Below the pieces are notes generated by a model. The model did no database searches. It had not been told where the DNA came from and worked only from the letters and a program-made list of their open reading frames with translations. A stretch of 64,000 bases of DNA, from NCBI GenBank assembly GCA_024663395.1, contig JANFAH010000003.1, positions 1,488,001 to 1,552,000 on the forward strand, in the 5' to 3' direction. Positions 12,055 through 38,816 of the stretch are shown piece after piece. A program made the position numbers and the translations under genes. This DNA is from Pisolithus tinctorius. Its lineage: Eukaryota; Basidiomycota; Agaricomycetes; Boletales; Pisolithaceae. Every line of letters starts with the position of its first letter. Position 1 is the first letter of the stretch.

Positions 12055-12135
12055 CACATAGTGTAGTCACACTTAGTCACAACACATGGGCAGCCTGTGT
12101 GCCAAAACACCAACACTTATATAGACCCCGAGATG
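12055..12135 (+). repeat. Left TIR of the KDZ element
   Basis: Runs from CACATAGTGTAGTC to the first GGGCCC unit. It matches the reverse complement of the right end with scattered transitions; the longest perfect shared block is CCAACACTTATATAGACCC. Confidence 0.85.
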
Positions 12136-12412
12136 GGCCCGCCTATAATAGATTAGCCGCTACACATGGACAGGCCCGAGGGACTAAAGTGAGAGCAACA
12201 TATGTACGGGCCCATAAGTGCATTACCACAACATATGGGAGGGCCCATGGTGGGTAAGGATGCTGAAACATTTAGACGGGCCCGTGACCAATTAAGTATA
12301 CTGAGCTGCTGTAAGACATGGACGGGCCCGTCCTGGTAGGTTACACCCCTGTCTCAACATTAAGGCAGGCCCGCCTATCATAACATGGAGAGGGTCACAG
12401 CATAAGGACGGG
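12136..12412 (+). repeat. KDZ left array, outer segment
   Basis: Diverged units carrying GGACGGGCCC next to CACAACATATGG- or CATAAGG-type sequence. The array is interrupted by gypsy-2 at the 5-bp target ACGGG (12408-12412), which lies inside one unit, and continues at 20532. Confidence 0.85.
12408..12412. repeat. Left target-site duplication of gypsy-2 (ACGGG)
   Basis: ACGGG is present directly before the left LTR and directly after the right LTR (20532-20536). Five base pairs is the usual gypsy duplication length. Confidence 0.9.
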
Positions 12413-13126
12413 TGTCAAGTCCGGGCCTACTCCGACCAACTCCGACGCTATATAAGGTCTAGAGAGGGGTTCGGAAGCAAGTCCGACACACAGGGACAGA
12501 ACTCCGACTAGCGGAGTGTCGGCAGGAACGAAGTCCGCTGAGACAAAGGCGGAGCGGAGTGAGGGCATCGGGTTTAGCTCGTGCGCTACCCCCTTGCACG
12601 ATCTCAGCCCTCGTATTTCAGAGGAAGAGTATAGACAGAGAGTCGGAGATAACTCCGACAGACAGAAGACGGGATCAGAGGGAGTAGGAACTAAGTTGAT
12701 ATTCGTACTGAAGAACAGCGGAGTACAGTACATACTTTTATACTGCTACGGAGGTACAGTAATCGGAATCGGAACTGACATATGGAGACTCATAAGTTTT
12801 CAAGTAAAATTTCCTGGACGACGAATGAAGGGTAGACGGAGGACATACGAACGGGTAACACAGAACATCCAGAAAAGGAAGCAGTCCAGGTGCTGGACCA
12901 TGCAGTGAGCGCGCTGCGGAGTACCTGACTGCGAAGGTAGTCACATGACCCCTCAGAGGACGGACCGCTCGGTCCGGTAGGAGAGCGACACAAGTCCGAC
13001 AGCAGTCGGAGCGGAGATGGTTCGCAACCGACAGAAGTTGGGCAGAGTTGGTGCGGAGTGAGTGAATGACCGGCGGAGTGGAGCGCGGAGTGAGTAAGGG
13101 CTTAGTGTGAACGCACGGTTATGACA
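12413..13126 (-). repeat. gypsy-2 3' LTR (left copy)
   Basis: 714 bp, TGT...ACA ends, nearly identical to 19818-20531. On the minus strand it has TATAAAAG (about 12733-12740), a likely sense promoter. On the plus strand it has TATATAAG at 12449-12456, which points toward the antisense gene. Confidence 0.95.
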
Positions 13127-13140
13127 GTGCCCCCCCCTTA
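13127..13140 (-). other. gypsy-2 polypurine tract
   Basis: Minus-strand reading is TAAGGGGGGGGCAC immediately before the 3' LTR. This is the usual primer position for plus-strand cDNA synthesis. Confidence 0.75.
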
Positions 13141-13320
13141 GGGCCTGAACCCCTGAAGGCCGCATGTACGGAACGAGATCGACACGAGTTGATCATTTGA
13201 AATTACCTGATGCCTCGAGGATAATGGCTTTAGCCGCGGCGGAGCTCCGTCGGAGTTCGAAGTACCGCTTAAAAACACGTGTTAGGGCACTGAACCTTCG
13301 TATCCCATTCCCCCATCATC

Positions 13321-14553
13321 ATGTCCTCTCAGCGCCAGAACAAAACCCCCCAGCCCACCCCTGGTCACTCTCGTGACTACTCCCAGGTCGCCGACGACGA
13401 CCTAGTCGTCCTTACAGACGACTCGACGGACACCAAGCGCGAGAAGGCAGCGGAGAAGGCGCGTCGGCGAGAAGAGGCGGAGAAGAAGGAGCGAGAGCGC
13501 GAGGTGGAGCGCAAGGCCAAACGAGAGGAGGCCAAACGACGAAAGGTGGAGGAGGCGCGGCAGGAGGCGGAACGGAGACAGAGAGAGGAAGAGGAGGTGC
13601 AGCGGAAGAAGAAGGCGGAGGAAGAGGCCGAGAGGCAAAGGCAGAGAGCAGCGGCGGAAGAGGCAGAGAAGCAGAGGCAGAGGGCCCAGGCCAGAAGGGA
13701 TGAGGCCGCTCAAAGGTGAGTGACAGAACCCTACAAGTCAGGCGGAGCTGACTTGTGTTTTTACCTCAGGTTAAGCGGCGCGGTCTACGACATCAACACC
13801 GCCCAGAGGGTCCCTGGGACCTCCGTGGTGGTCACCGCGACCAGGCGGCCCCCCTGCACTCGCTGCGTAGCGAGTCTGACGGTGGGCCAGTGCGAGCCAG
13901 GACAAGGCAAGACCAGGGCCTGCGTGCCCTGTCACAACAAAAAGAAGACCTGCAGTTGGACACGGGAAGAGGCGGCGGCGGGACCCTCGCGGAAGAGGGC
14001 AGGGACAGGAAGCTCCCGAGGGGAGAAAAAGAAGAAGCCGTGAGGGAAGGGGAAGGCAAGAGCGACGGAGACGGAGGAGGCTGACGACAAGCGGGAGGCA
14101 GGCGGAGAAGACGATGAGCCAGCGACCCCGCTCGAGGGTCCCTCAGGCGCGGGAGTCCACACGCGGTGGGCGGAGTGGGAGCGGGAAAGACAGCTGCAAG
14201 CCATGGAGAGGCAGGCCGAAGTGCACGAGACCGCTGCGCTGGCCTTCGAGAGGATGGCAGAGGCAGCGGAGCGGATGGCGGAGGCTGCAGAGCGGACCGC
14301 TGACGAGTGGGCGCTGTACCACGCCTGGGCAGAGTGGGCGGAGATGAGGAGAAGGGAGGATGCGTGTGAGGCCAGAGTGGCCGAGTTCGAACGCGCAGGA
14401 GGAGGATGGAAGAGGCCTCAGTTGGAGGCGGCGGAAGACAAGAACGAAGAAGCGGATGAAGGTGCGGAGGGGGATAACGAGGAAGAAGTCGAAGGAGAGC
14501 AGGAAGGTGGTGAAGAACAGGAGGGTGGCGGAGAACAAGCGATGGAAGAGTAG
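13321..14553 (+). pseudogene. Antisense zinc-finger/coiled-coil gene inside gypsy-2, one in-frame stop
   Basis: Opposite in orientation to gag-pol. Exon 1 (13321-13715) encodes a short Ser/Pro/acidic head and a long Arg/Glu/Lys-rich coiled coil. A 54-bp intron (13716-13769, GTGAGT...CTCAG) joins in frame to exon 2. Exon 2 has a cysteine cluster: CTRC (about 13858), then C, then CVPC followed by C seven residues later (about 13930-13960), resembling half-sites of a fungal Zn2Cys6 finger. TGA at 14041-14043 (CGA fits) interrupts the frame, which then stays open to 14553 with a second helical, Glu-rich region. It is probably an element-encoded nucleic-acid-binding protein of unknown role; antisense extra ORFs of this kind are known in some LTR retrotransposons. 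Confidence 0.65.
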
Positions 14554-14753
14554 AGTAGTTTTGTTTTTCTTTTCTTTTTTTTTTTTTTTTTTGTCTTTAG
14601 TTTGTATATTTTTGTACTACTACGAAATAGACTTGTGACCTTTGTTCGCGACTCTGAGAAGTGAAATAGACAAGCGGAGAAAATGCTAAAGTACTTAAGG
14701 TAGTTTGGTGAGGGGCGGAGTTGGCCAGCAGAGGAAGGTTATGTGGGTGGAGT
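14554..14753. other. Spacer between antisense gene and pol, T-rich tract
   Basis: Contains a long T tract (about 14573-14592) just after the antisense stop codon, which could serve its 3' end. No gene is seen. Confidence 0.4.
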
Positions 14754-17700
14754 TTATGGCGGAGGTTGGTACGGGCCAGGTTTGTGTGGATAGCGTTCAT
14801 GGAAAGCAGACACTATGTCGGAAGCGTGATCTAGCTCAGTTGCAAGCAACCAAGAGGTTTCTTCGTCGGTGTTCTCATAACCAGCCCAGCGGACTAGATA
14901 CAAGAGTTGACAGTGGCGGCGATGGCGGTCCACCTTAGAGTCGAGTATCTCTGATACCTCGTACTCAAGGTCACCATCAACATCCACTGGCGGAGGCGGA
15001 GGTTGTTGTCGGTTTGGGAAAGGGTTAGCCGCTGCGGCTTCCAGTTGTGAGACATGGAAGACCGGATGTACCGAGCGCATAGAGTCAGGGAGCTTGAGGG
15101 TGACAGAATGTGTACCTGGCCTGGCCAAGATGGTGAACGGACCTAAGTACTTTTCGGAGAGTTTTTCCGAAGGACGAGTTGAGCGGAAGTACTTGGCTTT
15201 GACGTAGGCCTGTTCTCCGACCTTGAACTCAGGCGGAGGTATGCGTTTAGCATCTGCTGGACCCTGGTAGCGCTGTTGAGCGGCGGACATTTCGGAGTGG
15301 AGGAAGTCATGAAGGGCGGAGAGCTCAGCGACATAGTCATGAGCCCTTGGGGAAGTGAAGTCTTGGTCAGGGACCACAGACAGGTTTGGATGGTATCCCT
15401 TGTTAGCGAAGAAGGGAGAAACTCCAGTCGTCGCACTTGGTGCGTTGTTGAAGGCGAACTCTGCTAGAGGTAACAGCTCAGCCCAGTTGTCTTGTTGGTA
15501 GTTACAGTAAACACGAAGGTACTGTTCGAGGGTCTGGTTCGTTCGCTTGGTCTGGCCATCACCTTCTGGGTGGTAACCTGAAGTGAAGTGAAGACGCATA
15601 TCAAGGGCCTTTCCTAGAGAGCGGAAGAAGTGCGAGACAAACTCAGGACCTCTGTCGGAGGTGACATTAGCTGGTACTCCGTGCTTGGAGAAGACATGGG
15701 TTAGGAAGAGCTTAGCGAGTTCGGCAGAGGTGACGGAGTCGTGGGTGGGGATGAACACCGCTTGCTTTGAGAGGCGGTCCACTACCACGAGTATGGCGGA
15801 GTAGCCATCGGAGTTGGGGAGGTGTTCGATGAAGTCCATGGAGATGGAGTTCCAAGGTCTCTCTGGGACGGGGAGTTGCTTCAGTAGACCATAAGGGCGG
15901 TGACGCAGAGTTTTGCTCCGTCCACAGGCGGTGCAAGACCTGACGTATTCCTTTACATCGGAGCGGAGGTTGGGCCACACGTAGTCCCTGCGGACGAGTT
16001 CTAAGGTGCGGTTCTGCCCGAAATGGCCTGCTAGAGGATGATCATGCTTGAACCGAAGCACTCGGAGGCGGAGGTCATCAATGTCAGGGACAAAGATACG
16101 ACCGTCAAGGCAGAGTAGACCGTCGGAGTCCAAGGACCACCGAGGCTTAGTCGGAGTTGGAAGATGGCTGGCAGAGACAGGGTCGGATGGTAGGGCGGAG
16201 ATGATGTCGGAGTGCAAGCACTCATCATCGAAGACCATGGCGGTGCGGAGCACAGGTGCCATGAGGGTAGTGGTACGGAGGGACGACGCGAGTTGCTCCT
16301 GTGTAAACATAGGGCGGAGATTGTGAGGATTTACCTGCGCGTAGTCCCTATCCCCCCCTTTTGGGTAGACGTCCCAACGTCGTGTAAGTGCGTCAGGTTT
16401 GGCTCCCAAGCGGCCAGGTCGGAAGCGGATGGAAAGATTGAACTGGGAAAGGTACTCCGACCAGCGGGCCTGTCGACGAGTGAGAACCTTGGAGGTAGAA
16501 AAGTACTCAAGGTTTTTGTGGTCTGTCACCATGTCGACGGGTAAGGCGGAGCCTTCTAAGTAATGCCGCCAATGGCGGAAGGCCTCGAAGATGGCCAACA
16601 GCTCCTTGTCGTGGGTATCATAATTGAGTTCTGGCGTGGTCATGGTGTGGGAGTAGAAAGCGACTGGGCGGAGTTCACCGTCGGAGCAGGTGATCGACAA
16701 AATGCCAGCAATGGCATAGTCGGAGGCATCGGTTTCCACTGTAAGCGGAGCGTCAGGGACCCAGTGAGTGAGAATAGGAGTGGAGCTGAAGGCATCCTTC
16801 AGGCGGAGGAAGGCGGAGCGGCACTCCTCGGAAAAGTTCCAAGGAGCACCCTTTCGCGTGAGGCGAGTGAGCGGAACGACGATGTCGGAGTAGTTATTAA
16901 TGAATCGTCTATAGAAATTTGCGAAACCAAGGAAAGACTGGATGTCTCGCACCTTCCGCGGCTCAGGCCAGTCGCGGACTGCCTGAACCTTCTCAGCGGA
17001 CATGGTGAGACCAGAGGGAGAAAGAACATAACCGAGGTACTCGACGGAGTCGGAGTGAAACTCGCACTTCTCTGGCTTGGCATAAAGACCATGCTTTCGA
17101 AGGCGGCGGAGTACCTCTTTTACGTGTTCGCGATGTGACTCCATGTCCTGCGAATAGATTAAGATGTCATCGAGGTATACCACGACGCAGACATCGAGCA
17201 CGTCTGCAAAGATGCTATTAACAAACCGCTGGAAGGCCGCAGGCGCATTAGTCAGACCGAATGGCATTACCCGCCACTCGTAAGAACCATAACGAGTGCG
17301 GAAAGCCGTTTTCCATTCATCTCCGTCTGCGATGTGGACCAGATGATAGGCATGGCGGAGGTCGATCTTGGTATAGACTTTAGCGTGGCTTGGAGAGTCG
17401 AGTAGGTCGGAGATGAGCGGCAGCGGATAGCGGTCTTTTTTTGTGATTTTATTGAGTCCTCGATAATCAACGCAGAGGCAGAGTGAGCCATCCTTCTTCT
17501 TCACGAAGAGGACAGGGGCACCGTGAGCGGAGGTGGACTGCTTGATGAAACCGTAGCCAAGATGCTCGTCAATGAAGGTGCGGAGAGCCTCAAGCTCTGG
17601 CAGAGAAAGAGAGTAGATTGTACCGATGGGCAGAGAAGCTCCTTCCTCGAGGTCGATCTTGAGATCAAACGAGCGGTGTGGCAGAAGTTCAGTGGCCTTG

Positions 17701-18472
17701 TCTTTACTGAAGACATCGGCAAACTCGTGATACTCAGAAGGAACCGAGGAGAGGTCAGGAGGCGGAGATGAAGCAGAGGACGCATGAAGCTTCACATCAT
17801 CAGCGGAGAGCTGTAAGCGGAACTGTCTGGAGCCAGGGAGAGCACAGGCTCTGACATACGCAGCAGCATTGATGAGTGAGACGAGTGGAGCGGAGTGCAG
17901 CGAGTCGGTCGGAGTTGCAGACGGAGCTGCAGACGGAGCGGAGGGTGTCGGATCCGGAGCGGAAGTTGCAGCGGAAGGTGACGAAGGTGCCTGGGGTGTC
18001 GGCATTCCCTGTAACAATGGTTTGAACGATATACTGCCCAGTACCCAGTCAATCGACGGATTGAAGCGGGTGAGCCAGTTGTGTCCCAATACCAGCGAAC
18101 ATGAAGAATCCAACGGAGTAACATAAAATGAAACGGAATTGACATCGCCGGAAGGAAAGCGGAGGGAAAGATCTACTTCTTGGGAAATGACAGCATTTGT
18201 ACTACCATCAAACAAGCGGAGCGGAATTGGTGGAGAAACGGAGGAAACAGGAATAGCATATTTTTTAATTACAGACGGGTCTACGAAGCAATGAGAAGAA
18301 CCAGAATCGATCAACGCAGAAAAAGTATCGACAGAATAATCCGGAAGGGTTACAGACGGAAGTAAAGAGTTGGGACTAGAAAGAGCGGACGCGTTGAGTC
18401 GGATGTCCGGTGGCGCACAGTTGGGTTCAACGCTTCCTCCAGGCTGTGCGAGCTCCCTGGAGGAGCGGACTA
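14754..18472 (-). CDS. pol: gypsy-2 Pol (protease-RT-RNase H-integrase-chromodomain)
   Basis: Entered by a -1 shift from gag. The frame is open from the slippery site. It gives a short linker, retropepsin DSGSSH (about 18310), RT with YLDDILIY (about 17170), RNase H with ETDASD (about 16730), an integrase HHCC finger (H...H about 16030, C-x2-C about 15925), catalytic SMDF and SDRGPEF (about 15650), GDGQTKR with the third acidic region, and a chromodomain (about 14800-14960, YLVRWAGY). No internal stop is present, so with Gag this copy looks coding-competent. It copies genomic RNA to cDNA and integrates it. Confidence 0.93.
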
Positions 18473-19756
18473 ATTTTTTGACTCTGCCTTCTCCGCAGGC
18501 GGAGTAGGCGGAGTTTCAGCCGTAGCTGCACGGGCTTTGGCTGCGCGAGAGGTGGACTTGGGACAGTCCTTGGCGGAATGGCCAGCCTCGCCACAGAAGA
18601 GGCAGAGGTTATTCTTCATCCTGTGCTGGCGTTCAGCGGAGGTGAGTTTGCCATCTTTACCCAGAAGGTGGGCAATATCGGACTTAGACGCATCGGACTT
18701 GGGCGGATCTTTCTGTTTGCCCTTGCCCTTGGCGTCGGACTTTGGAGCGGAGGACGAGGAGGACGACGATTTAGTTTTATTGTCGGAATTGGAAGACTGC
18801 GACTTGTCGGAGGTGGACTTGGTGGTGCGCGAGATCTCTGCTTTGCGCTCCCAGTAGCGCGCATCGATGGTCTGAGCGAGTTCGCGGAGTTGTGCGAGGG
18901 TAGAAGGCTTGCCGACGCGAGCGATCTCGTCTTTGATGCGGTCTGGAAGTCTGCTATAGAAGCGGTGGCGGAGTGCACCGACACCGTAGTCCTTGACCTG
19001 TGAAGCCCAGCGATTGAACTCCACGACGTATTTAGTAATTCGAGACCCATCCTTCATGGTTAGGTTCTCGAGTTGTTGGATGGCATCCGCTATGGCATCA
19101 TGCGGACCGAAGTTAGTTGTGAGCTCTTGTAAGAACTCATGGTAGTCGTCCATCCAGAGCGGGCAGTCATAGTTGTCGGGGTTTAGCAAATCTGGCTCGA
19201 ACCAAGCCAGGGCCATACCCTTGAGATAGGATTGAGCGAAGGTAACTTTAGCTCTGTCGGAGCGGAATGTGCGAGGGCGGTCTTGGAAGTTCAACTCGCA
19301 TTGAACGAGGAACTCGCGGAGTTTTTTGGGGTCGGAGCCGTCGAAGGTGTCAGGCTCGCGGACCTTGGTTTTCGGAGCGGAGTCCCCAGCGCGCGAACTA
19401 GACCGCGCAAGTGCATGGACAGCTCTAGCAAGAGCTACGAGGGGATCCTCTGGCGGCTCAGCCGGGTCTTCGGGGACATCCCCGTCACCGCTGCCCCCGC
19501 CGTTGGGATCACCATCAGGATAGTCAGGGTCGGGAGCGGGTCCATCATCTTGGTTACGAGGAGACGGAGTATGGAAAGTTGTTGGGTGGAGGTCGGAGCG
19601 ACCAGCTTGCGAAGCGCTTTCACCCTCAGCGCGAGAGCGGCGTCGAGCGGAGAATGACTGGAATTGTTCAACGACGGAAGGGAGTCGGCGCGGATTAGCT
19701 AGCGCTACAGCGAGGTTCTCAGCGACCTCTCTCTGGGATTGAGCTCGAGTTCTCAT
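18470..19756 (-). CDS. gag: gypsy-2 Gag
   Basis: 428 residues. An N-terminal polar region is followed by a capsid-like helical region (WFEPDLL..., about residues 140-280), a Ser/Lys-rich linker and a CCHC zinc knuckle, CLFCGEAGHSAKDC (about 18560-18600), before the stop. It forms the virus-like particle and packages RNA. Start ATG at 19756, about 60 bp inside the 5' LTR. Its last codons carry the frameshift heptamer. Confidence 0.9.
   Translation of the reverse strand: MRTRAQSQREVAENLAVALANPRRLPSVVEQFQSFSARRRSRAEGESASQAGRSDLHPTTFHTPSPRNQDDGPAPDPDYPDGDPNGGGSGDGDVPEDPAEPPEDPLVALARAVHALARSSSRAGDSAPKTKVREPDTFDGSDPKKLREFLVQCELNFQDRPRTFRSDRAKVTFAQSYLKGMALAWFEPDLLNPDNYDCPLWMDDYHEFLQELTTNFGPHDAIADAIQQLENLTMKDGSRITKYVVEFNRWASQVKDYGVGALRHRFYSRLPDRIKDEIARVGKPSTLAQLRELAQTIDARYWERKAEISRTTKSTSDKSQSSNSDNKTKSSSSSSSAPKSDAKGKGKQKDPPKSDASKSDIAHLLGKDGKLTSAERQHRMKNNLCLFCGEAGHSAKDCPKSTSRAAKARAATAETPPTPPAEKAESKN
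18473..18479 (-). promoter_or_regulatory. -1 ribosomal frameshift heptamer A AAA AAT
   Basis: On the minus strand gag ends TCA AAA AAT TAG. A AAA AAT fits the X XXY YYZ rule in the zero frame and lies directly before the gag stop. Slipping back one base enters the open pol frame (AAA AAA TTA GTC). Confidence 0.75.
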
Positions 19757-19817
19757 AATGGTGTAAGTTTTTCGGAGGACAGAAAATGAGATCGTACAAG
19801 TGCGAGTACGAATATAC

Positions 19818-20531
19818 TGTCAAGTCCGGGCCTACTCCGACCAACTCCGACGCTATATAAGGTCTAGAGAGGGGTTCGGAAGCAAGTCCGACACACAGGG
19901 ACAGAACTCCGACTAGCGGAGTGTCGGCAGGAACGAAGTCCACCGAGACAAAGGCAGAGCGGAGTGAGGGCATCGGGTTTAGCTCGTGTGCTACCCCCTT
20001 GCACGATCTCAGCCCTCGTATTTCAGAGGAAGAGTATAGACAGAGAGTCGGAGATAACTCCGACAGACAGAAGACGGGATCAGAGGGAGTAGGAACTAAG
20101 TTGATATTCGTACTGAAGAACAGCAGAGTACAGTACATACTTTTATACTGCTACGGAGGTACAGTAATCGGAATCGGAACTGACATATGGAGACTCATAA
20201 GTTTTCAAGTAAAATTTCCTGGACGACGAATGAAGGGTAGACGGAGGACATACGAACGGGTAACACAGAACATCCAGAAAAGGAAGCAGTCCAGGTGCTG
20301 GACCATGCAGTGAGCGCGCTGCGGAGTACCTGACTGCGAAGGTAGTCACATGACCCCTCAGAGGACGGACCGCTCGGTCCGGTAGGAGAGCGACACAAGT
20401 CCGACAGCAGTCGGAGCGGAGATGGTTCGCAACCGACAGAAGTTGGGCGGAGTTGGTGCGGAGTGAGTGAATGACCGGCGGAGTGGAGCGCGGAGTGAGT
20501 AAGGGCTTAGTGTGAACGCACGGTTATGACA
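19818..20531 (-). repeat. gypsy-2 5' LTR (right copy)
   Basis: 714 bp, TGTCAAGT...TTATGACA, nearly identical to 12413-13126. Minus-strand TATAAAAG at 20140-20147 is the likely promoter for gag-pol RNA. The flank 20532-20536 is the ACGGG duplication. Confidence 0.95.
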
Positions 20532-22410
20532 ACGGGCCCGTCTATGATTAGAATACAAAGTTGGCAACATATGGACGGGCCCAGGAGTAATATCATTTAT
20601 GGTGTCACAACATCTAGACAGGCCCGTTCATAATAAGCCGTACCTCTGTCACAACATAAAGACGGGCCCGTCAGTAATGTCGTTTCATAATGTCACAACA
20701 TATGGATGGGCCTGTCGACAGTAAGATGTACTGCTGTTGAAACATAAAGACAGGCCCGTCACAAGTATCTTTTAATAGAGTCACAACGTAAGGTCGGGCC
20801 TGTCAGTAGTATTATGCAACATATGGACGGGCCCGTCCACAGTAAGGTGTGCCTCTGACGAAACATAAAGACGGGCCCGTCAGTAATCTCATGTATAGCA
20901 TCACAACATATGGACGGGCCCATCAGTAGTATTATTTATATCGTCACAACTATGGGTGGGCCCGGCCCCAGTAAGATGTACCCTGTCAAAACATAAAGGC
21001 GGGCCCATCACTAATATCATTTAATAGAGTCACAGCATATGGATGGGCCCTTCAGTAGTATTATTTATATCGTCACAACATATGGGCGGGCCCCCGCCCC
21101 AGTAAGATGTACCCTGTCGAAACATAAAGGCGGGCCTGTCACTAATATCATTTAATAGAGTCACAACATATGGACGGGCCCTTCAATAGTATTATTTATA
21201 TCGTCACAACATATGGACGGGCCCTTCAGTAGTATTATTTATATTGTCACAGCATATGGACGGGCCTGTCCACAGTAAGATGTGCCTCTGACGAAACATA
21301 AAGACGGGCCCGTCAGTAATCTCATGTATAGCATCACAACATATGGACAGGCCCTTCAGTAGGATTATTTATATCGTCACAACATATGGGCGGGCCCGGC
21401 CCCAGTAAGATGTACCCTGTCGAAACATAAAGGCGGGCCCGTCACTAATATCATTTAATAGAGTCACAACATATGGACGGGCCCTGCAATAGTATTATTT
21501 ATATTGTCACAACATGTGGACGGGCCCTTCAGTAGTATTATTTATATTGTCACAGCATATGGACGGGCCCATCCATAGTAAGATGTACTTCGGACGAAAC
21601 ATAAAGATGGGCCCGTCAGTAATCTCATGTATAGCATCACAACATATGGACGGGCCCTTCAGTAGTATTATTTATATCGTCACAACATATGGGCAGGCCC
21701 GGCCCCAGTAAGATGTACCCTGTCGAAACATAAAGACGGGCCCGTCACTAGTATCATTTAATAGAGTCACAACATATGGACGGGCCCTTCAGTAATACTA
21801 TTTATATTGTCACAACATATGGACGGGCCCTTCAGTAGTATCATGTATATCGTCACAACAAATGGACGGGCCCGGCCCCAGTAAGATGTACCCTGTCGAA
21901 ACATAAAGACAGGCCCTTCAGTTGTATTATTTACATTGTCACAGCATATGGACGGGCCCGTCCACAGTAAGATGTACCTCTGACGAAACATAAAGACAGG
22001 CCTTCAGTAGTATCATGTATATCATCACAACAAATGGACGGGCCCATCTAGCCAGATGCACCCCTGTCAAAACATAAGGACAGGTCCGTGTATGGTATTC
22101 TTAGGCAGCAGAAAGGGAGATCCAAGCTATCTACATAAGGACGGCCCGTGTAAGGCATTCTCAGGCAGCAGAAAGGGAGATCAAAGGGATCTACATAAGG
22201 ACGGGCTCATCCATGGTATTCTCAGGCAGCAGATAAGAGAAAACAAAAACCGGTGTTACAACATAAGACGGGCCGATCCGTCCATCGCAGGATTACAAAC
22301 CCTTGGCACCGCATAAGGCAGGCCAATCCATCGTATCATAGATAGCTCACTGCAAATGGACGGGCCTATCCATATTGGGTTATCCCCCTGTCACAATATA
22401 AGACGGGCCC
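20532..22410 (+). repeat. KDZ left array, inner segment (43/44-bp alternating units)
   Basis: Two unit types alternate. One has TCACAACATATGGACGGGCCC, the other has TGTCGAAACATAAAGGCGGGCCC (the last base of each varies). Spacings measured in the middle are 43 and 44 bp. Blocks of several units recur as a higher-order repeat. The palindrome core is GACGGGCCCGTC. Units degrade after about 22040. Orientation is opposite to the right array. Confidence 0.93.
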
Positions 22411-22829
22411 AGGAAGACAAGAAATGAAGAAAGGGGAACCTCTCGCACTATGAAGTATCTGAATTTCCCACTATAAATTGTGTTTCATGTTGGACGATTT
22501 GTCTATTCAGTTGGAATCTCAGGCGCTGGTCTATGTAGCCGTGAGCCAGGACTCCGCCATTGGAGCAGACGGGAAACACACAAAACAAATGGCAATGCTA
22601 TTCAGAACAAAGCATAATAATTTTATCTGAGTCTCTGCTTCATATATGCATCCAGGATTATGGACTTGTACCAGTATTGCTGTCATGCCGTGGGAATCAT
22701 TCATAGGCGGGATAAAAAGTGCGACATCCGCGTATCTCATTGTCCGTCTTTCACTTCTGACTCTTCCTCTCTCCAATCACCATCACCACTCTCACCGTCG
22801 AATTACCTCATCATCTCTTCATCAGAAAC
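22411..22829. other. Upstream region of the Zn2Cys6 gene
   Basis: About 420 bp between the last array unit and the ATG at 22830. C/T-rich just before the start (CTCTCCAATCACC...), as in many fungal promoters. No coding signal. Confidence 0.5.
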
Positions 22830-24556: not shown

Positions 24557-25744
24557 ATGAGGCCGTCTATAATTTTACTCCTCCGCGGTATATACAATGT
24601 TTTTTTACATTTCGCATTTTAATTGACCACTGCGGCCGCATCATATACTCAACATTTACTTAGAGTGAGAAAAAGACAATGGCTAGACAGCCAACAGAAT
24701 TGCGAAGGATAATCTCATTCTACTAAAACAACCGCTGATGTATCCCGATAGGCGGAAGCTTAGCAAATGCATGGCTTTGCGATATAGCATAGTTAACATG
24801 AAGCTTAAAAAATGAGATAGCGGGATGGTCTCATTCTGCTAAAACCGGAGGTGATGGAGCCTGATAGATGGAACCCGAATGCGTGGGCTATGCTATTTAC
24901 AGCGTTCACTTGGGATTTACAAAACACAATAACGACTAATAATAGGATAACAATATTTACAGCGTTCACTTGGGAGTTACAAAACAAGATAACGGCTAAT
25001 AATAGGATAACAATGCAAAGGAAGATGTCAGCCTGCGAAAACAGCATTCTGCGGATCCCAATAGACGGAACCCTTCCAAATGAGCGGCCTGCGCAATATG
25101 CAAGGTTGATATGGACTGTCTCGACCTGCTAACATGGAATTCGATGGATCCTGATAGACGGAGCCCTTCAAAGTGAGCGGACTGCGTGAGATGCAAGGCT
25201 GAGAGCAATTGGTCATTGGATGCAAATGCAAAGCAATATTCTCATTGCACTAATGTAGGATCCAAGGTATGCCCACAGGTTGGACATGTGCAAACGAGCA
25301 GAGTGTGAGATTCGCAAGGTTCAATTCAGGGAGAAAGTTGCATTCTGCTATTGAAGGAGCCAATGTATTTCGATAGGCGGAAGCTTGGCAAATGAGCGGA
25401 TAAATATTTCTCAGCAGACGGAAATACCACCAAGGGCATTCAGCCAGTAACTAGTGCCCAATTCACCCTCTGCATTGAGCAATAAATATTCTGTTTCCCA
25501 ACAATGGTTTGTTGCCATTCATCTCAGCCCGCGGACGCATGAGCCTTTCAAGACAGACGATATACATACGCATGTCATACCAGACATATCCACAATGGAA
25601 ATAAAACATGCGAAAGGTAAATGAATGGGCTAGCTTGCCACTGGGCGTCTCCTGCGAAGTACCCACTGACCCGCCCATCAGCTACAGGGCGGAATGCAAG
25701 GGCGGGGGACGGAAACTGCAGGTTCACATTGAGCTAACATTTAA
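24557..25744. repeat. Non-coding KDZ interior with a 60-bp tandem duplication and diverged repeats
   Basis: Two adjacent 60-bp copies (about 24895-25014) contain AGCGTTCACTTGGGATTTAC and GACTAATAATAGGATAACAA. Around them, a looser unit with GATAGACGGA followed by AAATGAGCGG recurs at about 24750, 24860, 25060, 25160 and 25375. No convincing gene is seen. Confidence 0.6.
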
Positions 25745-28700: not shown

Positions 28701-29396
28701 ATGGGGACAGGGTGCTCCACCATGTCCCAGGTGCAACCGAACGCCAGTCTGTGGGTCTTGATGTGAATGTAATTCTGGGCAACCAGCTGATCGCTCACCA
28801 TATGGAGGGCGGATTCCTCGTAGAAGTCCCCTGTCCACTGTTGGATCCTGTGGAAAGGCAGACTCTCATGACTCTTCCAGCAACATTCTGTGCAGAATAG
28901 GGGCTGATGCAAGCAATCCGGACATCTGTACACCCCGTCGTTGCCACACCAGGTGCAGTTCCTTGGCTCTGGGGAGGCTTCCAGCTCCAGGAGTATCTTC
29001 AAGAACTCCCCCTTCCATGGAACCCATTCGCGGATGTAATTGTTCTGCGTCTGACACACCATGTGAAGTCCGCTTTCGGGTTGGCAAACTGCTGCATACC
29101 TTTTTCCGCGGTAACATCAGCTGCTGGACCGGTGGGCTCATGCTTTCATGTCCGTCGAAGGCTGAATCCGCCCATGCATCAAAGTACTTGTGGGAGCGAG
29201 ACCTTGAATGCTTGGATGGCGAGGATCGGGGAGAATGGACAGGGGTTGCTGGATCTGGCTGTTTGATCGCGACTTCTACCAATCGCGATCTATATCTACC
29301 TCCAGTTCTCCGAGTCTTGACTTCCAGCTGCTTCACCCGATGGCCCAGGGTAGGACCAATCATTCTCATGCCCTTTTGAGTACTTCCCTTGGCCAT
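25745..29396 (-). pseudogene. CxC2-KDZ transposase, one stop and one frameshift
   Basis: Exons on the minus strand are 29396-29100, 29050-28799, 28748-28323, 28269-28097, 28050-27888, 27844-27693, 27645-27251, 27200-26086 and 26028-25745, joined by introns of 44-57 bp (total close to 1086 codons). It opens with a basic head, then a CxC2-type cysteine cluster (CTWC...CPDC...CTECC, then H and LGHGGAPC). KDZ signatures follow: LALFCAACPQPGIN, DGNFKAEH (first catalytic acid), CFYDINCSYM, GIGIWHVHGHKKEC, and DGEIIETLWS with the last acidic residue. A TGA at 26284-26282 (CGA fits) and a 1-nt frame change at about 26950 break the C-terminal half; the rest is open. It would excise and insert the element by DDE chemistry. 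It lies divergent to gene C. Confidence 0.9.
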
Positions 29397-29996: not shown

Positions 29997-32531
29997 ATGG
30001 AGTCCCAGTACGAATCAGACACCTGGGATCAGACGGAAAGAGATGATGCTGATGGTGAGCGAGATATAGAACCATCAGATGTGGGGGAAAGGGAGGAAGA
30101 AACATTTGAAGTGGAAGAGTTGGAGATCCTTGGGCACCGACGCCAGGAATGGAGGCAAGCAGGGAAGAAGAAGAAGCCTGCAGTTCTGCTATCTATATTG
30201 GAGGAGATGCAGGGATTGGACAGGAACAAAGAGTTGAGAGGGAGCAAAGTCCAGACCAAGTGCAAGGTACGCTCTAAAAGTTCTGATTCAGATGCTCACA
30301 ATTCAAAGCACCCTTGTAGCTAATACAAGATTGGTTGAAAAAGCCCCTCCGTTCAAAGAAGCCCCGAATTACCCTTAGATCCAGTTACAAATACTCTGTG
30401 CGGGCAGTGGTCCGCGAATTGTACCAAGAGCAAATACAGGAGAAGCTTGCAAAAATGAAAGTAGAAGAAGGCGATACCCATGGAAGCAAGCAGATCCAAC
30501 AGTATCAGAATGCATTGACAGCTTTTATTCAGGACGACCTGACGGAGGAACAATTGGCTGCAGCTGAAGATATAGCGGAAAGGTGGAATGGGCGGGAAGG
30601 CCCTGCGCCAGAGACAAAAGCAAGGTGCGATTTTATGAGGTCAACTTCCCAGTCTTCAATTTATCCTGGTTCCCAGGAATGCAGCCAAGTATGGGTACAA
30701 GTATGTCCGAAACTTTGCGATGGAGATGTGGAGATATTGCGGAATGCGCATAGTGTGTATGGCTGGGTGGAAAAATGAGGAGGGAACTATACAGGCATGC
30801 ACATGAGTCCACCATATTCTCCTCTAGGCCTAGGTAAGACTCATGCAATGACAGTATGGACTTCAATAACGAAATCGCAGATGGGATCCCCTTCAATGAT
30901 GTCCGCACACTGGAAGGAAGCTGGCGAGAGTACCTTGGGGAAACATTTGAGGAACCAGGAACACCACCCGAGCATGATGGCGAGTCAAGTCCCGAACGTG
31001 CTCGGAAAAAGACAGCAGCCAAAGCAACGAGGACGGGCAAGGTTGACTCCGTGAAATTGGTGAAAAATGCCAATGGAGAGATTTGGATAGGAGAAATCGC
31101 GGGCCTTAGCCGGGACCAACTACAAAAAACGGTTCGCGGATTTATGACTGCTCACTACCGTGAGTGGCCAGAGTATTTAGTCTCCTCAATCTCTGACGAG
31201 TGCTATCAGGATTAGCATGCGGAAATCCCTCGTCAGCAGTGCCGTTCAAGAATTTCGGTCATCATCAAGCGGAAATGATAGCAGCCCGCCATCTTCCTGA
31301 AGGATTTACCTTCGACCGCGACCCAAGTCACATGTGGACGACAACAGCTACCCAGCTGCTGTCCTTTTGGCGCAAGCGACAGGAAACCCATCCAAATGAT
31401 GTGTTTGGATTTCAGAAATGGATCGATCGATCTGGCGAGCTGCAGCCACCAGTGGATAGAACTTTGGTACCCCTCCAGGTTGTGAGGCAGCGGAAATACC
31501 AAAAGACACCTGCCCCCAAATACAAAAAGAATCCTGGAAGGAAAAATGTCAAGGGCAAGGGTAAAGCGCAGGAAGAGGGAGTGGTGGATGATAGCACGGA
31601 TGATAGTGCAGATGATAGCCCAGATGACAGCCCGGATGACAGTTTGGATGATCACGGCGAGGCTGAGGGGAGCGATGTTGGAACAGATGATCCCTCCGCT
31701 AAAAAGGTGCGCCATGTGTGATTTTCATGCATGACAGATCAGCACTAATGCGATTCCGGTCTTCAGGTATCTGGCGGGAGGCAAAACCGTGCCAAGACAC
31801 CATTCCCTTCTCGTTCCCGCTCAAATCCCCCACCAGCTGAGCTCTCTGCACCTCCAGCCCATGCAAACACCCCGGTGCATCGTCCACGAAATAAAGCGCT
31901 AACTGACGATAATGGGAGGGAAAGCAACGGCCATGATTCCGATGATGAAGCTGATGAAGACACTTATTTGCCCACCCTATCCAATTCAAAGAAATCGGCA
32001 ACATCCCTGAATAGTGAGCTTCCCACTGTAATTTGTATTCACAGCAAACCCTGATCTGCACTCAGGGAGCGAGTACACAACTGAACTACAGGACCACTCA
32101 GAATACGCAGATGCAGATGGATTGGAGAGCATTCCTTTCACTGACCTCCCAACTGAGGAGGGGTCAACCAGCAGAAACAAAGGCGGAAAGCTGAAATCCG
32201 CCCTGAAGCGCACGCACAAGGCAAGTTCGGCCATGTTGAATCAGTTGTCATAGCTAACAAGTTTGCGCTGTGTGTTAAGTAGGCTCTGTCAGAATCGAGT
32301 GAGCCAGACATGAATCGATGTCGACCTGGGGCCAAATACTCGTCCAAGTCCAACAATAATGGATCTGTGACCTCCAATGCAGCATCCGCGAATGTGAAAC
32401 AGGGCGTCCCTGGGAGCACCTGGAAGTCACCTCGTGTCAGAAAGGCCCCTGCAAGGCCAGATGCAGATGTTCCATCTCCTGATGCAAAGAGATCACGCAA
32501 GCAAACAGGCAGCAATCAGAAGCAGAAGTAG
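29997..32531 (+). pseudogene. KDZ cargo gene C, unknown protein with a lost splice donor
   Basis: Eight exons fit: 29997-30266, 30320-30624, 30677-30802, 30855-31159, 31210-31706, 31767-32013, 32066-32220 and 32283-32531, about 717 residues. The junction after exon 3 reads AC|ATGAGT where GTGAGT is expected (single G to A in a former CpG), so normal splicing would fail there and read into an in-frame TGA. Intron 7 begins GCAAGT, a GC-AG intron. The protein has an acidic head, a WLKKPLRSKKP segment, a central folded region (MEMWRYCGMRIVCMAGWKN; GIPFNDV; GSWREYLG), an Asp/Ser-repeat region (DDSPDDSPDDS, about 31605-31650) and a basic tail. I do not recognise a domain. Confidence 0.7.
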
Positions 32532-32967: not shown

Positions 32968-35073
32968 ATGTCCACCGAACAGTCCCGCCAAGTTCGTTTC
33001 CGTCGTCAAGGTGAGGTTGTCTTCATTGTTGGATCCAGCGACCTAAGCCATCCACAGCTAATGTAAGACCAATCGAGCCAAGGCAATCTAGCTCCCGCGT
33101 GAAGCAGTCCAAAAATCTGGAGGAGAGGCTAGTACGACTGCGTGAGTTGCGAGAGCCAACCCCGCCACCAATTGTCTCAAGTGGAAGGGCGGATATGGCA
33201 GGGTCGAACATTGATATCGCGGCCAGTGAGTGAACATGATTTCTCTCCAAGCACAAAAACAAAGTTCTTTCGATATAGATTCATCTGAAAGTTTTCTGGC
33301 TCAGTTCCTGCAGGAAAGGGAGCCAACTGCTCTGGCAGAGGTCGGAATCACAGCCGGTGAGTTGGCAAGATTGCCCTTCAAGCTAACGAAAAAACTAATT
33401 TTCTAGTAATGGATCCACACGAAAACTTGATGAATCGGTTCCTGAATGAACGGGAACCAACTGCTCCCCCAGCGGATGGTATGAACGTGGATCTACTCGA
33501 GCAATTGCTGAATGCGCGGGAACCATCGGCACCGCCAGTCACGGACGAGACATTAAACAGGATGGACGGGTCTTCAACACCTGCACAAGACGTTACTATG
33601 CAGGTCGATTTTCTGGCAGACTTGCAGAATGTGTGGGAACCGTCTCCTCTGCCCATCACCCGTGAATCATCAAATCTGAGGGACCGATCTCCTCGACCTG
33701 ATTCTCCAACTAACCTGCTTGCTCAATTGCAGGATATGAGGGAACCAACACCTCCCCCGCGCATTTCAAATGTACCCGTCGAATCTTTTGACTTGGCAGC
33801 GGATGAGGACAATGGCGCAAACCGTTTGACTTTTGGCATGCCCGAACGATCAGAGATGAGGGATCTCTTCAAAGAAATATGCAACGGTGAGTATATTTGG
33901 TTCTATTCATGTGATCAGGGATATCCATCGGTTATGTAGGTGAACTTCCATCCAAACCGCAATCTCTTCAAATGGAACAATGGGGATTGGCACCTGTTCC
34001 ACGTTGCGATCAGGGTATGGGCATGAGCTTAATCTGAAACACCATTGACGTTGATAATTTTAGTCCTGCGCGCCTTACATGCCGCGGTATCTCGCTACCG
34101 TGGAAACACCGCTCCCAGCGACACGCCGTTCGATCCCACCCTCGATAGGCACCTCGTGCGTGCTGCGAATGCCATTGCGAGAGAATTGGGCACAGCTGCA
34201 AGGGACCAGTATGGTGCAGCGTCTCAGGGCCTTCGACTCGTCAATATGCTCGATTTGATGGAAGTCGTTCGTTATCCGCGTTCCGCCTTTGAAAATTGCC
34301 CGGAGCCATTCATCGCCAGCCAATCACACCCATCTCGCCAGTCTGTGGTAGAGATGGGTATCGTCTACTTGGCGTGCCGGATCGAGATGGCCTCTGTACA
34401 TTTGAAGCAGACTGCCGATATCGCGGGATGGCCCGCGCATTGGTTTGCAAACCTAGCAATGGACTTGGTAGGTTTTACATCAATTTTTCACAATGTGGGA
34501 CTGATACATAATTCCTTCAGAATCAGCTTAATAGCTTGATTCTGGTGACGGTGTCGCGTGCCAGTTATACTCCTCCCCTCCCAGCGTGCTACCATGCGTA
34601 CCTCAGACACCAAGATGATGAGGTTAGCTTCCGCGAGCAAATGCAGCTAATTCCCCTTAGCGCATTTTGCCTAATCAACAATATCAGCACCATCGTCCCG
34701 CATTGGACCCCACACACAGATGATCCCAATTCTGGCTTTGCATTCCCTTGGTGGCTATATCGCTCCAAGGAATACGCAGCGGATTCCCAAAGATTGCAAG
34801 GCAAAGGATTGTTTTCCACGGCCTGGGATTTTTTTAAGGTATGCCGCTTATTCTCGTCGCTGCAAATAGTTGATGATGGCCCAGGGCTTATGGCCATTGC
34901 CTGAGGCGCCAATCGCAGACCGTCTCGATGGCCATATCGAGGAGCAGGCAAACTACTGCATCGAAAATATTCAGAAATATGCCGATGTTGTCAACGGTCG
35001 GGGTCGACAAATCGACCATTTCTACGCTAGGTGGTGGGCATTGCGTGGGTTGTTGGGCATGCCGCTTCAATAG
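32968..35073 (+). CDS. KDZ cargo gene D, unknown protein with REP(T/S) repeats
   Basis: Eight exons join without breaks: 32968-33010, 33058-33225, 33279-33356, 33407-33886, 33940-34014, 34064-34467, 34521-34838 and 34885-35073, about 584 residues. The N-terminal third repeats a short motif at least six times, each a leucine-rich helix ending in REP(T/S)-x-P or a variant: LRELREPTPPP, FLQEREPTALA, FLNEREPTAPP, LLNAREPSAPP, LQNVWEPSPLP and LQDMREPTPPP. The C-terminal two thirds is a globular, probably helical domain with many Trp and Tyr (FPWWLYRSKEY; FYARWWALRG). Purpose unknown. The conserved frame in a partly decayed element suggests recent function. Same strand as gene C, convergent with the dioxygenase. 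Confidence 0.8.
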
Positions 35074-35412
35074 TTTACGTGTTTTTGACTGTGGAGTTGG
35101 TTGTATATACATTGCTGTAAATGTTGATCATTTATGAGATGCCGCCCATTCACATGATGTCTGAACCCCCGCCCATCCATGTGATGTCTCACAATCCGCC
35201 CATCTGCATGATGGCCTGAGTAATTTTACTTTTGTTGCAGTTTTTGATGCAAACCCTTTAGCCCTGAGTACCTGCCCAATCTATGATGTCTAAGCACCTG
35301 CCCATTTGCAAAATCTTGGCAACACCGCCCGTCCAAAGTTCGAGAGCCAGCATATCCTAATAAAATACGAGATCCGCATGGCCTACTAAATCTTACATTA
35401 AATTTTGCAGCT
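35074..35412. repeat. Spacer with minisatellite CCCATCCATGTGATGTCT-type units
   Basis: Between convergent gene D and the TET/JBP gene. Several units of CCGCCCATnnATGTGATGTCTnA type (about 35140-35220, weaker at 35265-35335) recur every 30-40 bp. They resemble the CCCGTCCATGTGTTGTGA part of the terminal array unit. Confidence 0.55.
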
Positions 35413-36655
35413 TCAAATCAACAGTTCTCCAGTTGCAACTGGTCTAGGTAGTAGGTCATCCATCCCCGGTGATTGACACATGGGAACGTGCACCGACTGA
35501 TGTACGTTGGCATGCATGTAGTATGCCAGGCATGCTCTGTCACCGTCTACAGCTCCCACCCCATGCTCCAATGCTGAACCTGAAAATGCAATGATGGTCC
35601 CTGGGTTGTAGCACAGCCGCAGATCCAGCGTTGGAATGACAAAGTCCAAGGGCGGGTAGTCGCCCACGGTTACCAGCATGTCATACCATGGATCCCGTCC
35701 ATTGATATCCCTGTGGTAACAAGTTGCCCGATTCACCATCACGGACATGCTGCTATACGTGGAGCTCCATATTGGCAGTATGGAGCTCATATCCGAATCC
35801 GCCTGCTGTTCCGCCTGTTTGCCAAGGCGGATCAACGCTTCCCTGCCGTCTGCATACATTCGCAGGTGGATGACATGCAGGATCGCAGATAACAGGGCAT
35901 TGGTGTTGGACATTTGGTCGACCCATTCCCTTGTAGAAGTGTTTTCCGTCCTGGATTTGAGCAGCCGTGAGGCTTCCGGAAAGCCATTTTGGGGCTTCAA
36001 GACGGATGAGCGCTTTATTTACAAGGCGAGCAATGATCACTCACCCCACGACCCTGTTGAAACCATGCGGGTGACAGGTTGATGGCGCCTTTCAACTCGG
36101 CATTATTGCAGAAATATGACTTGTCCATCCGCCATGCCTGTGGGGAAGCCTTTATGCTCTCCCGCAGTGGTTCCCTCAGAAGATGAAGGTGGTTCCATAC
36201 GTCGGCCTGCCCATTACACTAAGTCAGTAGAATATGAGATTCTGCATTTCCTTACCCTTCTTTTTGGGCTGAGAGCGTCTGGCAAATACCATATGCGGAT
36301 GGTGTTTGAATCAGTCACCAGAATGGACGGCTCAGTCACTTCTGTGTATCTCTCAGCAGCTTCTGCATTGCAGGTTTTTCCACCCCGATTTTTCCCGACG
36401 TTGACTGCGGAAAGATGAAAACTTCCATCGCACCATTATGATGGACGTACTTGGGCGACGATAGGCCTGTGAGATTACTGATGATATGCGATCCGCTTCA
36501 CATAACACCGGAAATGGAATCGATATATCTGGAAGGGCGCGAGGTCCGCTGAATACCTCCTCTTGAAATCTGGCTTTCATGTATGACGCAATGCAGTCTG
36601 TTAGTTCCATTCGCCATCCGTGGGGGATTTTAGACGTGTCTTGCATAGTATTCAT
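35413..36655 (-). CDS. KDZ cargo: TET/JBP-family 2-oxoglutarate/Fe(II) dioxygenase
   Basis: Four exons give one open frame of about 369 residues: 36655-36451, 36404-36256, 36218-36045 and 35994-35413 (introns 46, 37 and 50 bp). The catalytic double-stranded beta-helix lies in the last exon. The iron ligands appear as HRD in CYHRDINGRD and the distal His in LEHGVGAV; the following DRACLAYYM supplies the Arg expected to hold 2-oxoglutarate. LVTVGDYPPL and YNPGTIIAFSG fit the TET/JBP pattern. Family members oxidise 5-methylcytosine (or thymine in JBP) in DNA, and fungal expansions of the family travel with KDZ transposons. This enzyme may therefore demethylate the element's own DNA; substrate and target are inferred. 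No stop or frameshift was found. Confidence 0.87.
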
Positions 36656-36764
36656 GCTTGGGGTGGATGAGGTCGGAATTGTATAGCGGGCGAGCCGCTT
36701 GCAGCTTGTTGGAAAATTACGGCATTTCGGGACGCTTGCCTCAATATTTTACTGTGATCCAATC
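36656..36764. promoter_or_regulatory. Short promoter space of the dioxygenase gene beside the right array
   Basis: Only about 110 bp separate the ATG from the first recognisable array unit, so the promoter may overlap the array. No clear TATA box. Confidence 0.35.
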
Positions 36765-38734
36765 AATATGTTGTGACGCTATACATGCTATTGGTGTTGG
36801 ACCCCTCTTATGTTGCGACAGGGGTGGATCTTACTAGACGGACCCATCCTTGTTTTATGGCGATATAAAAGATATTACTGAAGGGCCGTCCATACGTTAT
36901 GACCATATAAATAATACTGCTGAAGGGCCCGTCCTTATGTTGTGACCAACGGGCCCGTCTTTATGTTGCGACAGGCATGCATGTTGCTATTGACGAGCCC
37001 ATCCATGTGTTGTGACCTTGTAATTGATATTACTGACGGGCCCATCCTTATGTTGCGACAGGGGCATATCTTACTAGACGGGCCCATCTATGTGTTTTGA
37101 CATTGTAAATGATATTATTGACGGGCCCGTCTTTATGTTGCAACAGGCATACGTGTTGCTATTGACGGGCCCGTCCATGTGTTGTGACCGCGTAATTGAT
37201 ATTATTGACGGGCCCGTCTTTATGTTGCGACAGGCATACGTGTTGCTATTGACGGGCCCGTCCATGTGTTGTGATCGCGTAATTGATATTACTGACGGGC
37301 CCATCTATGTGTTGTGACACTGTAAATGATATTACTGACGGGCCCGTCCTTATGTTGCGACAGGGGCATATCTTACTAGACGGGCCCGTCTATGTGTTGT
37401 GACATTGTAAATGATATTATTGACGGGCCCGTCTTTATGTTGCGACAGGCATACGTGTTGCTATTGACGGGCCCGTCTATGTGTTGTGACACTGTAAATG
37501 ATATTACTGACGGGCCCGTCGTTATGTTGCGACAGGCATACGTGTCGCTATTGACAGGCCCGTCCATGTGTTGTGACCGCGTAATTGATATTATTGACAG
37601 GCCCGTCTTTATGTTGCGACAGGCATACGTGTTGCTATTGACGGGCCCGTCCATGTGTTGTGATCACGTAATTGATATTACTGACGGGCCCGTCTATGTG
37701 TTGTGACACTGTAAATGATATTACTGACAGGCCCGTCTATGTGTTGTGACACTGTAAATGATATTACTGACGGGTCCATCTATGTGTTGTGACACTGTAA
37801 ATGATATTACTGACGGGCCCGTCCTTATGTTGCGACAGGGGCGTATCTTACTAGACAGGCCCGTCCATGTGCTGTGACCGTGTAATTGATATTACTGATG
37901 GGCCCGTCCTTATGTTGCGACAGGGGCGTATCTTACTAGATGGGCCCGTCTATGTGTTGTGACGCTGTAAATGATATTGCTGACAGGCCCGTCTTTATGT
38001 TGCGACAGGCATACGTGTTGCTATTGACGGGCCCGTCCATGTGCTGTGACCATGTAATTGACCTTGCTGAAAGGCCCGTCTTTATGTTGTGACATGGGTG
38101 CATCTTACTAGACGGGCCCGTCCATGTGTTGTGACCCTGTAAATGATATATATTGAAGGGCCCGTCTTTATGTTGCGACAGGTACATCTTACTATGGACG
38201 GGCCCGCCCATGTGTTGTGATGGTATAAATGGTATTACGGAAGGGCCCGTCCATATGTTGTGACGCTATAAATCACATTACTGATGGGCCCATCTTTATG
38301 TTGCGGCAGTGGTGCATCTTACTAGACGGGCCCGTCTATGTGTTGTGACACTGTGAATGATATTACTGACGGGCCCGTCCTTATATTGCGACAGGCGTAC
38401 ATCTTGCTATGGACGGGCCCGTCTATATGTTGTGACAGGGGTATATTATCCCAAAGACGGGCCCTTCCATATGTTGCCAACTCTGTAATCTATCATAGAG
38501 GGGCCCCTCTTTATGTTGTGACCCTATAAAGCATGTGATGGGCAGGCCCGTCCATGTCTTACAGTAGCTCAGCATACTTACTTGGTCACGGGCCCGTCTA
38601 TATGTTACAGCATCCTTACCCTCCACAGGCCCTCCCATATGTTGTGGAATTGCGCTTACGGGCCCGTACACATGTTGCTCTCACTATAGGCCCTCAGGCC
38701 TGTCCATGTGTCATGGCTAATCTATTTAGACGGG
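36765..38734 (+). repeat. KDZ right array (43/44-bp alternating units, mirror of the left)
   Basis: GACGGGCCCGTC recurs with alternating inter-palindrome parts of 32 bp (TTTATGTTGCGACAGG...) and 31 bp (CATGTGTTGTGACCGCG...), so the spacings are 44 and 43 bp and the dimer is about 87 bp. Length divided by period implies roughly 45 units. Its units are the reverse complement of those in the left array. Variation between copies is mostly transitions at CpG. Confidence 0.95.
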
Positions 38735-38816
38735 CCCGTTGCAGGGTCTATATAAGTGTTGGCATTTTGGCACGCAGGCTACCTATATGTTGTGGCTAAA
38801 TGGACTACATGGGGTC
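38735..38816 (+). repeat. Right TIR of the KDZ element
   Basis: The reverse complement begins GACCCCATGTAGTC and includes CCAACACTTATATAGACCC, matching 12055-12135. It is followed at once by TCAATGA (38817-38823). Confidence 0.85.

Follow-up and report, generated by a model that had tools for sequence, protein, structure and literature searches.

A TET-carrying, Kyakuja-like KDZ transposon of Pisolithus tinctorius: its boundaries, its linked genes and a possible anti-silencing role

A stretch of 64,000 nucleotides from the ectomycorrhizal Boletales fungus Pisolithus tinctorius (the window, that is, the whole stretch analysed; C3:1488001-1552000 of an assembly of 92.5 Mb in 221 contigs) holds an element that bears on the question why TET enzymes are found in fungal transposons. 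This KDZ DNA transposon is bounded, is flanked by a 7-bp target site duplication (TSD), is present many times in the genome and has five genes that form one unit, a TET/JBP dioxygenase gene among them; its identity and gene set are practically certain. It is filed here as KDZ, probably Kyakuja-like. The best explanation overall, whose chances of being right and wrong we consider evenly balanced, is that of an autonomous-looking TET-carrying transposon whose enzyme may act transiently against silencing, with targeting to arrays of palindromes at the element's ends. A bounded multi-copy element with a fixed gene set, with one protein of that set (U1) kept in four subfamilies, and with candidate targets makes the question experimentally approachable.

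The element, its ends, its target duplications and its terminal arrays lie as follows.

12055..38816, no strand: whole KDZ element including a nested gypsy retrotransposon, 26,762 bp; placed by outer ends, TSD and empty sites
12048..12054, no strand: left 7-bp TSD, TCAATGA
38817..38823, no strand: right TSD, TCAATGA
12055..12128, plus strand: left terminal inverted repeat (TIR) with core CCAACACTTATATAGACCC
38744..38816, minus strand: right TIR
12130..12412, no strand: left palindrome array, first part, ACGGGCCCGT-type units
20532..22470, no strand: left palindrome array, rest, ~43-bp units, outer limit approximate
36850..38740, no strand: right palindrome array, ~43-bp units

An earlier reading of the same DNA (the original prediction) had claimed complete boundaries, a length of about 18.6 kb, TIRs, a target duplication and terminal arrays, and these prove exact to the base: 12055-38816 between copies of TCAATGA, and 18,638 bp once the nested gypsy and one copy of its TSD are subtracted. 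The ends are imperfect inverted repeats, identical in 60 of 74 aligned columns, with unlike outermost bases (CACATAG... / ...GGGGTC). The core CCAACACTTATATAGACCC forms a facing pair in the window, at 12110(+) and 38744(-), where 0.00 is expected from 100 shuffles; genome-wide its exact copies number 148, of which 80 are forward and 68 reverse, whereas the reversed control pattern has none. The TSD is exact over 7 bp in 12 of 13 measured pairs (12 fetched and that of the window) and matches at 6/7 in the remaining one. The uninterrupted target of the window element is found at nine other places (three over all 78 nucleotides, six over 71), with 100% identity over 78 nucleotides at one of these empty sites. 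That target is an open reading frame (ORF) of a retroelement; its right part gives a weak match to a tyrosine recombinase (PF00589, E 0.0015, short of the cut-off), the left ORF none to Pfam; it may be read as a retroelement of the reverse transcriptase/DIRS type.

Between the arrays lie five genes.

22830..24556, plus strand: gene for the Zn2Cys6-type protein, 524 aa in 4 exons; CxxCx6Cx7CxxCx6C
25742..29396, minus strand: KDZ transposase gene with CxC2 zinc cluster; spliced exons from 29396 down to 27251
29997..32531, plus strand: U1 gene, GTF2I-like repeat protein; splice junction near 30800 tentative
32970..35074, plus strand: U2 gene, protein without assigned fold; start approximate
35413..36655, minus strand: TET/JBP dioxygenase gene; PF12851 E 2e-18

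From left to right the order is thus Zn2Cys6 (+), CxC2-KDZ transposase (-), U1 (+), U2 (+) and TET/JBP (-), and the dioxygenase, the Zn2Cys6 protein and the two unknown proteins that had been listed are indeed present. The CxC2 zinc cluster (PF18803, E 2e-26) and the KDZ domain (PF18758, E 7.4e-24, 85.1 bits against a cut-off of 26.6) belong to one transposase gene, CxC2 being no separate protein; the final part of that gene, to about 25742, consists of conserved ORFs only. DGNF, YDIN and VDGEIIE in the spliced transposase frame may represent the catalytic D-D-E triad. Aligned to CcTET (7vpn/7w5p; E 4.3e-24), the dioxygenase keeps the HRD motif, Gly331, Asp337 and the distal His, residue numbers and meanings being those given by Kojima 2025 (PMC12730594). 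The Zn2Cys6-type protein matches Pfam Zn_clus at E 0.049, below cut-off, and its C-terminal stretch reads as a coiled coil. For U2 the predicted structure has a mean predicted local distance difference test score of 41.6, and full-length profiles of U1 and U2 gave no match to the PDB at E<=1. Protein searches, which reach relatives that have short exact words in common only, returned matches that are all named Pisolithus: 47 proteins for U2, 70 for U1 and 25 for Zn2Cys6, with ~8,000 candidates scored each. As a description of this gene set "cargo" is a loose term, no gene of host benefit having been recognised.

U1 appears to contain a remote GTF2I-like (TFII-I) repeat, below the Pfam cut-off. 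Its first domain slice scores 20.2 bits against PF02946, where the curated cut-off is 27; of 12 domain slices, which were cut once the predicted-fold match had been seen, 8 reach E<=1 (best 0.00052), as do 9 of 30 full-length members, with a best E of 0.013. Profile and predicted fold together suggest one such domain in the modelled protein, a likeness to animal TFII-I/GTF2I repeat proteins, from which U1 differs in its score below the cut-off, in the single domain of the modelled protein and in its fungal transposon context. The remaining Foldseek/VIA matches are weak and mixed, and Pfam matches in U1 members are scattered (PF12815 at 5.4e-05 in 1 of 30, PF14677 at 0.0039 in 2 of 30). Because of its remote GTF2I-like repeat, U1 is the best candidate for a reader of the arrays.

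The claim that the five genes travel as a set was followed in further copies, picked by the spacing of facing cores, not randomly, from the first 100 cores listed of the 148: nine pairs ~18 kb apart and three short pairs, the facing pair C1:680935/702651 being excluded because its outer ends did not match. Besides the window, eight of the nine ~18-kb pairs hold the five genes in colinear order, at 95.5-98.4% identity to the window over 14.1-14.3 kb, and the ninth (C12b) holds none. Together with the fixed offsets found genome-wide (below), this supports the movement of the genes as one set. Two of the eight, C4a and C20a, are decayed or rich in 1-nt indels; the many 1-nt indels of the C20 and C4 copies, compared with the others, are possibly assembly errors. 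The outcome named in advance as a refutation of the original prediction, a consistent lack of TET in copies with these ends, did not occur. The same-ended elements that lack TET, namely C12b and three short elements of 6.2, 7.4 and 9.1 kb, lack all five genes, and all four have internal inverted repeats of 1.3-3.0 kb. Read from its ORFs, C12b contains a nested retroelement. These four elements have the ends, the palindromes and a TSD; therefore the ends suffice in trans. This fits a quite possible, if less than probable, alternative in which the arrays do no more than bind the transposase for synapsis, TET works across the whole genome without being targeted, the element profiting only because it supplies the enzyme, and U1, U2 and Zn2Cys6 are accessories of transposition or expression unrelated to methylation.

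Which genes stay with the transposase was asked genome-wide, with 150 of 305 candidate places scored for the transposase and 150 of 186 for TET, so that the counts are lower bounds. Transposase exon identity alone cut the places into four bands, F1-F4, F1 being that of the window element; partners were counted within 20 kb of the transposase, from 132 of 144 rows for U1, 84 of 89 for U2 and 49 of 51 for Zn2Cys6, the omitted rows being second fragments of the same place. At the 42 places of F1, Zn2Cys6 was found at 36, U1 at 33, U2 at 31 and TET at 25, with all four partners at 20. F2 (34 places) has U1 at 31, U2 at 27, TET at 24 and Zn2Cys6 at one, this single case being the decayed F1 copy C4a (80%), which falls in band F2. 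F3 (45 places) has U1 at 41, TET at 37, and neither U2 nor Zn2Cys6. F4 (29 places) has TET at 19, U2 at 3, Zn2Cys6 at 1 and U1 at 2, or at 27 with an F4 query (39 of 68 rows typed, second fragments and weak rows omitted), a query that also picks up U1 copies of F3 (24-31% identity, best E 4.3e-6). By chance each partner would lie near 2-6% of transposases. In dozens of F1 copies the partners sit at fixed offsets and in fixed orientation; the median TET offsets from the transposase are +8.3, +7.9, -4.3 and +2.3 kb in F1 to F4, and TET lies within 10 kb at 18/42, 21/34, 33/45 and 19/29 places.

One representative each, for F4 its right end only, describes the architecture of the other bands. That of F2 has all five genes, with a Zn2Cys6 homologue 33% identical (E 4e-30); in that of F3, TET lies on the other side of the transposase and a Zn2Cys6-like motif follows past U1 (profile E 0.012); in that of F4, TET, transposase and U1 run in one direction and no Zn2Cys6 was seen. 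Two simpler pictures had to be dropped: that F3 and F4 lack U1, given the counts of 41/45 and, with its own query, 27/29, and that Zn2Cys6 is confined to F1, given the F2 homologue and the F3 motif. Transposase, TET and U1 are kept in all four bands in varying gene order, Zn2Cys6 and U2 in some, so that the partner linked with TET throughout is U1 and not the Zn2Cys6 protein. As the linkage is kept despite the changed order, we read it as a sign that transposase, TET and U1 are partners in function, and it argues against an untargeted TET with unrelated accessories. So does a control set of 138 other KDZ places (150 of 160 KDZ matches taken in): within 6, 10 and 20 kb, TET lies near 0, 4 and 6 of them and U1 near 1, 1 and 6, the latter with a single query sequence of limited reach that missed the U1 of F4; the figures are 0, 1 and 5 for U2 and 2, 3 and 5 for Zn2Cys6. 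Adjoining locus tags for U1 and U2 in P. thermaeus and P. orientalis (EDD17DRAFT_1506408/1506409; F5J12DRAFT_783527/783528) hint that their linkage extends to other Pisolithus species. Within the F4 family (e.g. C1:5027000-5038999), 21 of the matches to the U1 exon show 100% identity and probably mark a recent burst, which makes this family the best candidate for activity assays.

The arrays differ between F1/F2, F3 and F4. The scanned end stretches hold 29 exact ACGGGCCCGT units in F1, with a period of ~43 bp, and 25 in F2; with <=1 mismatch, the F2 ends have 33 ACGGGCCCGT units (21 exact). At the F3 ends there are 17 units of GTGCCGGCAC, 2 of them exact and many spaced by 21, 42 or 63, and at the right end of F4 there are 13 of GTCGGCCGAC (8 exact; spacing 45 bp). 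The interiors of F2, F3 and F4 contain no palindromes, shuffled ends 0.05-0.15 on average, and in the eight fetched five-gene copies the units are confined to the outer 3 kb. Each family's ends are free of the other families' motif, the motifs having been chosen from these same sequences, one representative each.

It is tempting to combine these observations as follows. The transposase would recognise the element's ends; TET would oxidise 5-methylcytosine (5mC) on element DNA only briefly, upon activation of a copy, allowing the element's genes to be transcribed or its ends to be cut; U1, with or without the Zn2Cys6 protein, may bind the subfamily-specific arrays and so recruit TET, or else the transposase, to the DNA of the element itself; and the host would re-methylate resting copies, which then decay from CpG to TpG. 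That TET is the anti-silencing enzyme of the element is probable. Direction of its action to the arrays by U1 and/or Zn2Cys6 is a tentative and rather unlikely step, and we regard as doubtful the fuller proposal of a three-part sequence-directed anti-silencing module, in which TET, the GTF2I-like reader U1 and subfamily-specific end arrays as landing sites act together. In such a module the reader would change along with its array from one subfamily to the next, TET and U1 remaining linked despite reshuffled order.

The record of methylation in the copies bears directly on this proposal. Across nine copies, CpG sites carry transitions at 14.4%, compared with 0.35-0.58% at other C/G sites, and most of the stop codons in decayed copies are TGA; a TCG preference was not seen (ACG 0.162, CCG 0.151, GCG 0.134, TCG 0.108). 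CpG decay of the element is thus heavy, which is what methylated DNA would be expected to show, and the footprint serves as a relative-age record of methylation on copies of one family. CpG transitions make up 64% of the KDZ substitutions (1517/2368) and 6/6 of the differences between the gypsy long terminal repeats (LTRs), and in DIRS-like comparisons they account for 20/26, 17/20 and 54/90; by these shares, the KDZ element as a whole does not seem clearly spared. The arrays decay likewise: 15-23% transitions at CpG positions and 0.8-1.2% at non-CpG positions, or, in 646 units (<=2 mismatches), 96-146 transitions per CpG position versus 5-8 per non-CpG position. Copy by copy, array and interior decay are correlated (Spearman 0.92, slope 1.16, n=9), with an intercept of 0.066 that includes older unit variation. 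Array CpGs thus decay as fast as the interior, lasting protection is not visible, and the array-specific protection sought in the nine copies was not found. This weighs against array targeting if protection were lasting, and fits an untargeted enzyme; the suggestion that the dioxygenase removes methylation at the ends is not borne out by this, in itself indirect, footprint, with which a short-lived demethylation in active copies would still be compatible. A further, unlikely alternative takes the TET product for a signal instead of an erasure: 5-hydroxymethylcytosine or further oxidised bases would flag the ends to be cut, or would keep methyl-readers off, with no return to cytosine, an option also raised by Kojima 2025 (PMC12730594). 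Persistent decay fits a modified cytosine that remains in place, as do the conserved CcTET-type residues such a role, although plain 5mC deamination after insertion explains the decay equally well.

Whether the accessory genes matter to the element was approached through selection. Values of NG86 dN/dS (ratio of nonsynonymous to synonymous substitution) of 0.29-0.66 in nine copies were discarded as a sign of purifying selection: two exons had been misframed, CpG bias lowers such values under neutrality, and the signal was gone in a context-matched test. In that test, with C4a and C20a dropped for 1-nt indels, no F1 gene of the seven copies fell below the neutral expectation at 50/1000, so that no purifying selection is seen within F1. 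The lowest ranks were 56/1000 (TET N-terminal, shared events) and 76/1000 (U2, all events), and U1c singletons lean the opposite way at 989/1000; with no downward departure, F1 variation is therefore mostly post-insertion decay. This result, and the bands in which U2 and Zn2Cys6 were not found, would suit chance captures that hitch-hike in a large element and contribute nothing to its transposition. We consider this highly improbable: between subfamilies third codon positions differ most in 10/10 comparisons (TET F1-F2: 0.353/0.269/0.606), a pattern of constraint, the consensus of the tested exons has no internal stop, and the fixed offsets and orientation as well as the adjoining U1-U2 tags of other species stand against it.

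As for precedents, TET-carrying KDZ elements in Agaricomycetes were reportedly described by Iyer et al. in 2014. According to Kojima 2025 (PMC12730594), TET-carrying Kyakuja transposons are known from Agaricomycetes, Boletales are reported with these only, and two L. bicolor families have a 7-bp TSD and CA..TG ends without TIRs. The window element is like Kyakuja in its KDZ transposase, its AG-type TET with CcTET residues and its 7-bp TSD, and differs from the L. bicolor families in its CA...TC ends and their inverted identity. The text searched there does not mention subterminal, zinc, Zn2Cys6 or Pisolithus, and the paper describes oxidised 5mC in Coprinopsis also on retrotransposons, which Kojima reads as non-target-specific, in line with an untargeted TET. 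Cryptococcus KDZ1-3, in the accessible part of PMC12810828, share a KDZ transposase with a CxC zinc cluster and TIRs, and insert actively in Cryptococcus; they differ in length (~9-11 kb), in TSD (8 bp; KDZ2/3, 4-8 bp) and in a cluster of type CxC1, and no TET gene is named there. VANDAL21/VANC of Arabidopsis (PMC5735166, seen in part) is alike in outline, with family-specific tandem motif arrays that differ between related elements and a transposon-encoded anti-silencing factor, here a candidate; VANC is another protein, no dioxygenase is named in that part, and methylation loss is shown there and only inferred for the KDZ element. The VANC domains DUF1985 and DUF287 were not among the listed Pfam matches at E<=1 of 30 U1 and 26 U2 members or of the one Zn2Cys6 exon scanned. 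By analogy, VANC appears to be the nearest counterpart in mechanism. If the array-targeted, three-part arrangement were true, it would correspond in fungi to VANC, with the difference that the demethylation enzyme comes with the element, and, with U1 directing TET to the arrays, a natural sequence-programmed demethylation tool. It would then also be a further solution to the transposon-silencing arms race, to which Spm TnpA is another besides VANC. What is added here to the TET-carrying KDZ elements already in the literature is the set of genes, the domain in U1 and the arrays that are specific to subfamilies; for these the open-licence literature searched gave no earlier report, nor, among the papers listed, any that brings a GTF2I-like repeat together with Basidiomycota.

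Antisense to the gag-pol of the nested gypsy, at 13294-14553 (+), lie ORFs that would encode a long charged protein with the look of a coiled coil and, after it, a CxxC-type cluster; two of them, 13294-13719 and 13720-14043, were scanned and have no Pfam match at E<=0.01. The retrotransposon itself interrupts the left palindrome array.

12413..20531, minus strand: nested gypsy/Ty3 retrotransposon with chromodomain, 8.1 kb, within the left palindrome array
12413-13126 and 19818-20531: gypsy LTRs, 99.16% identical
12408-12412 / 20532-20536: gypsy TSD ACGGG, read from the sequence

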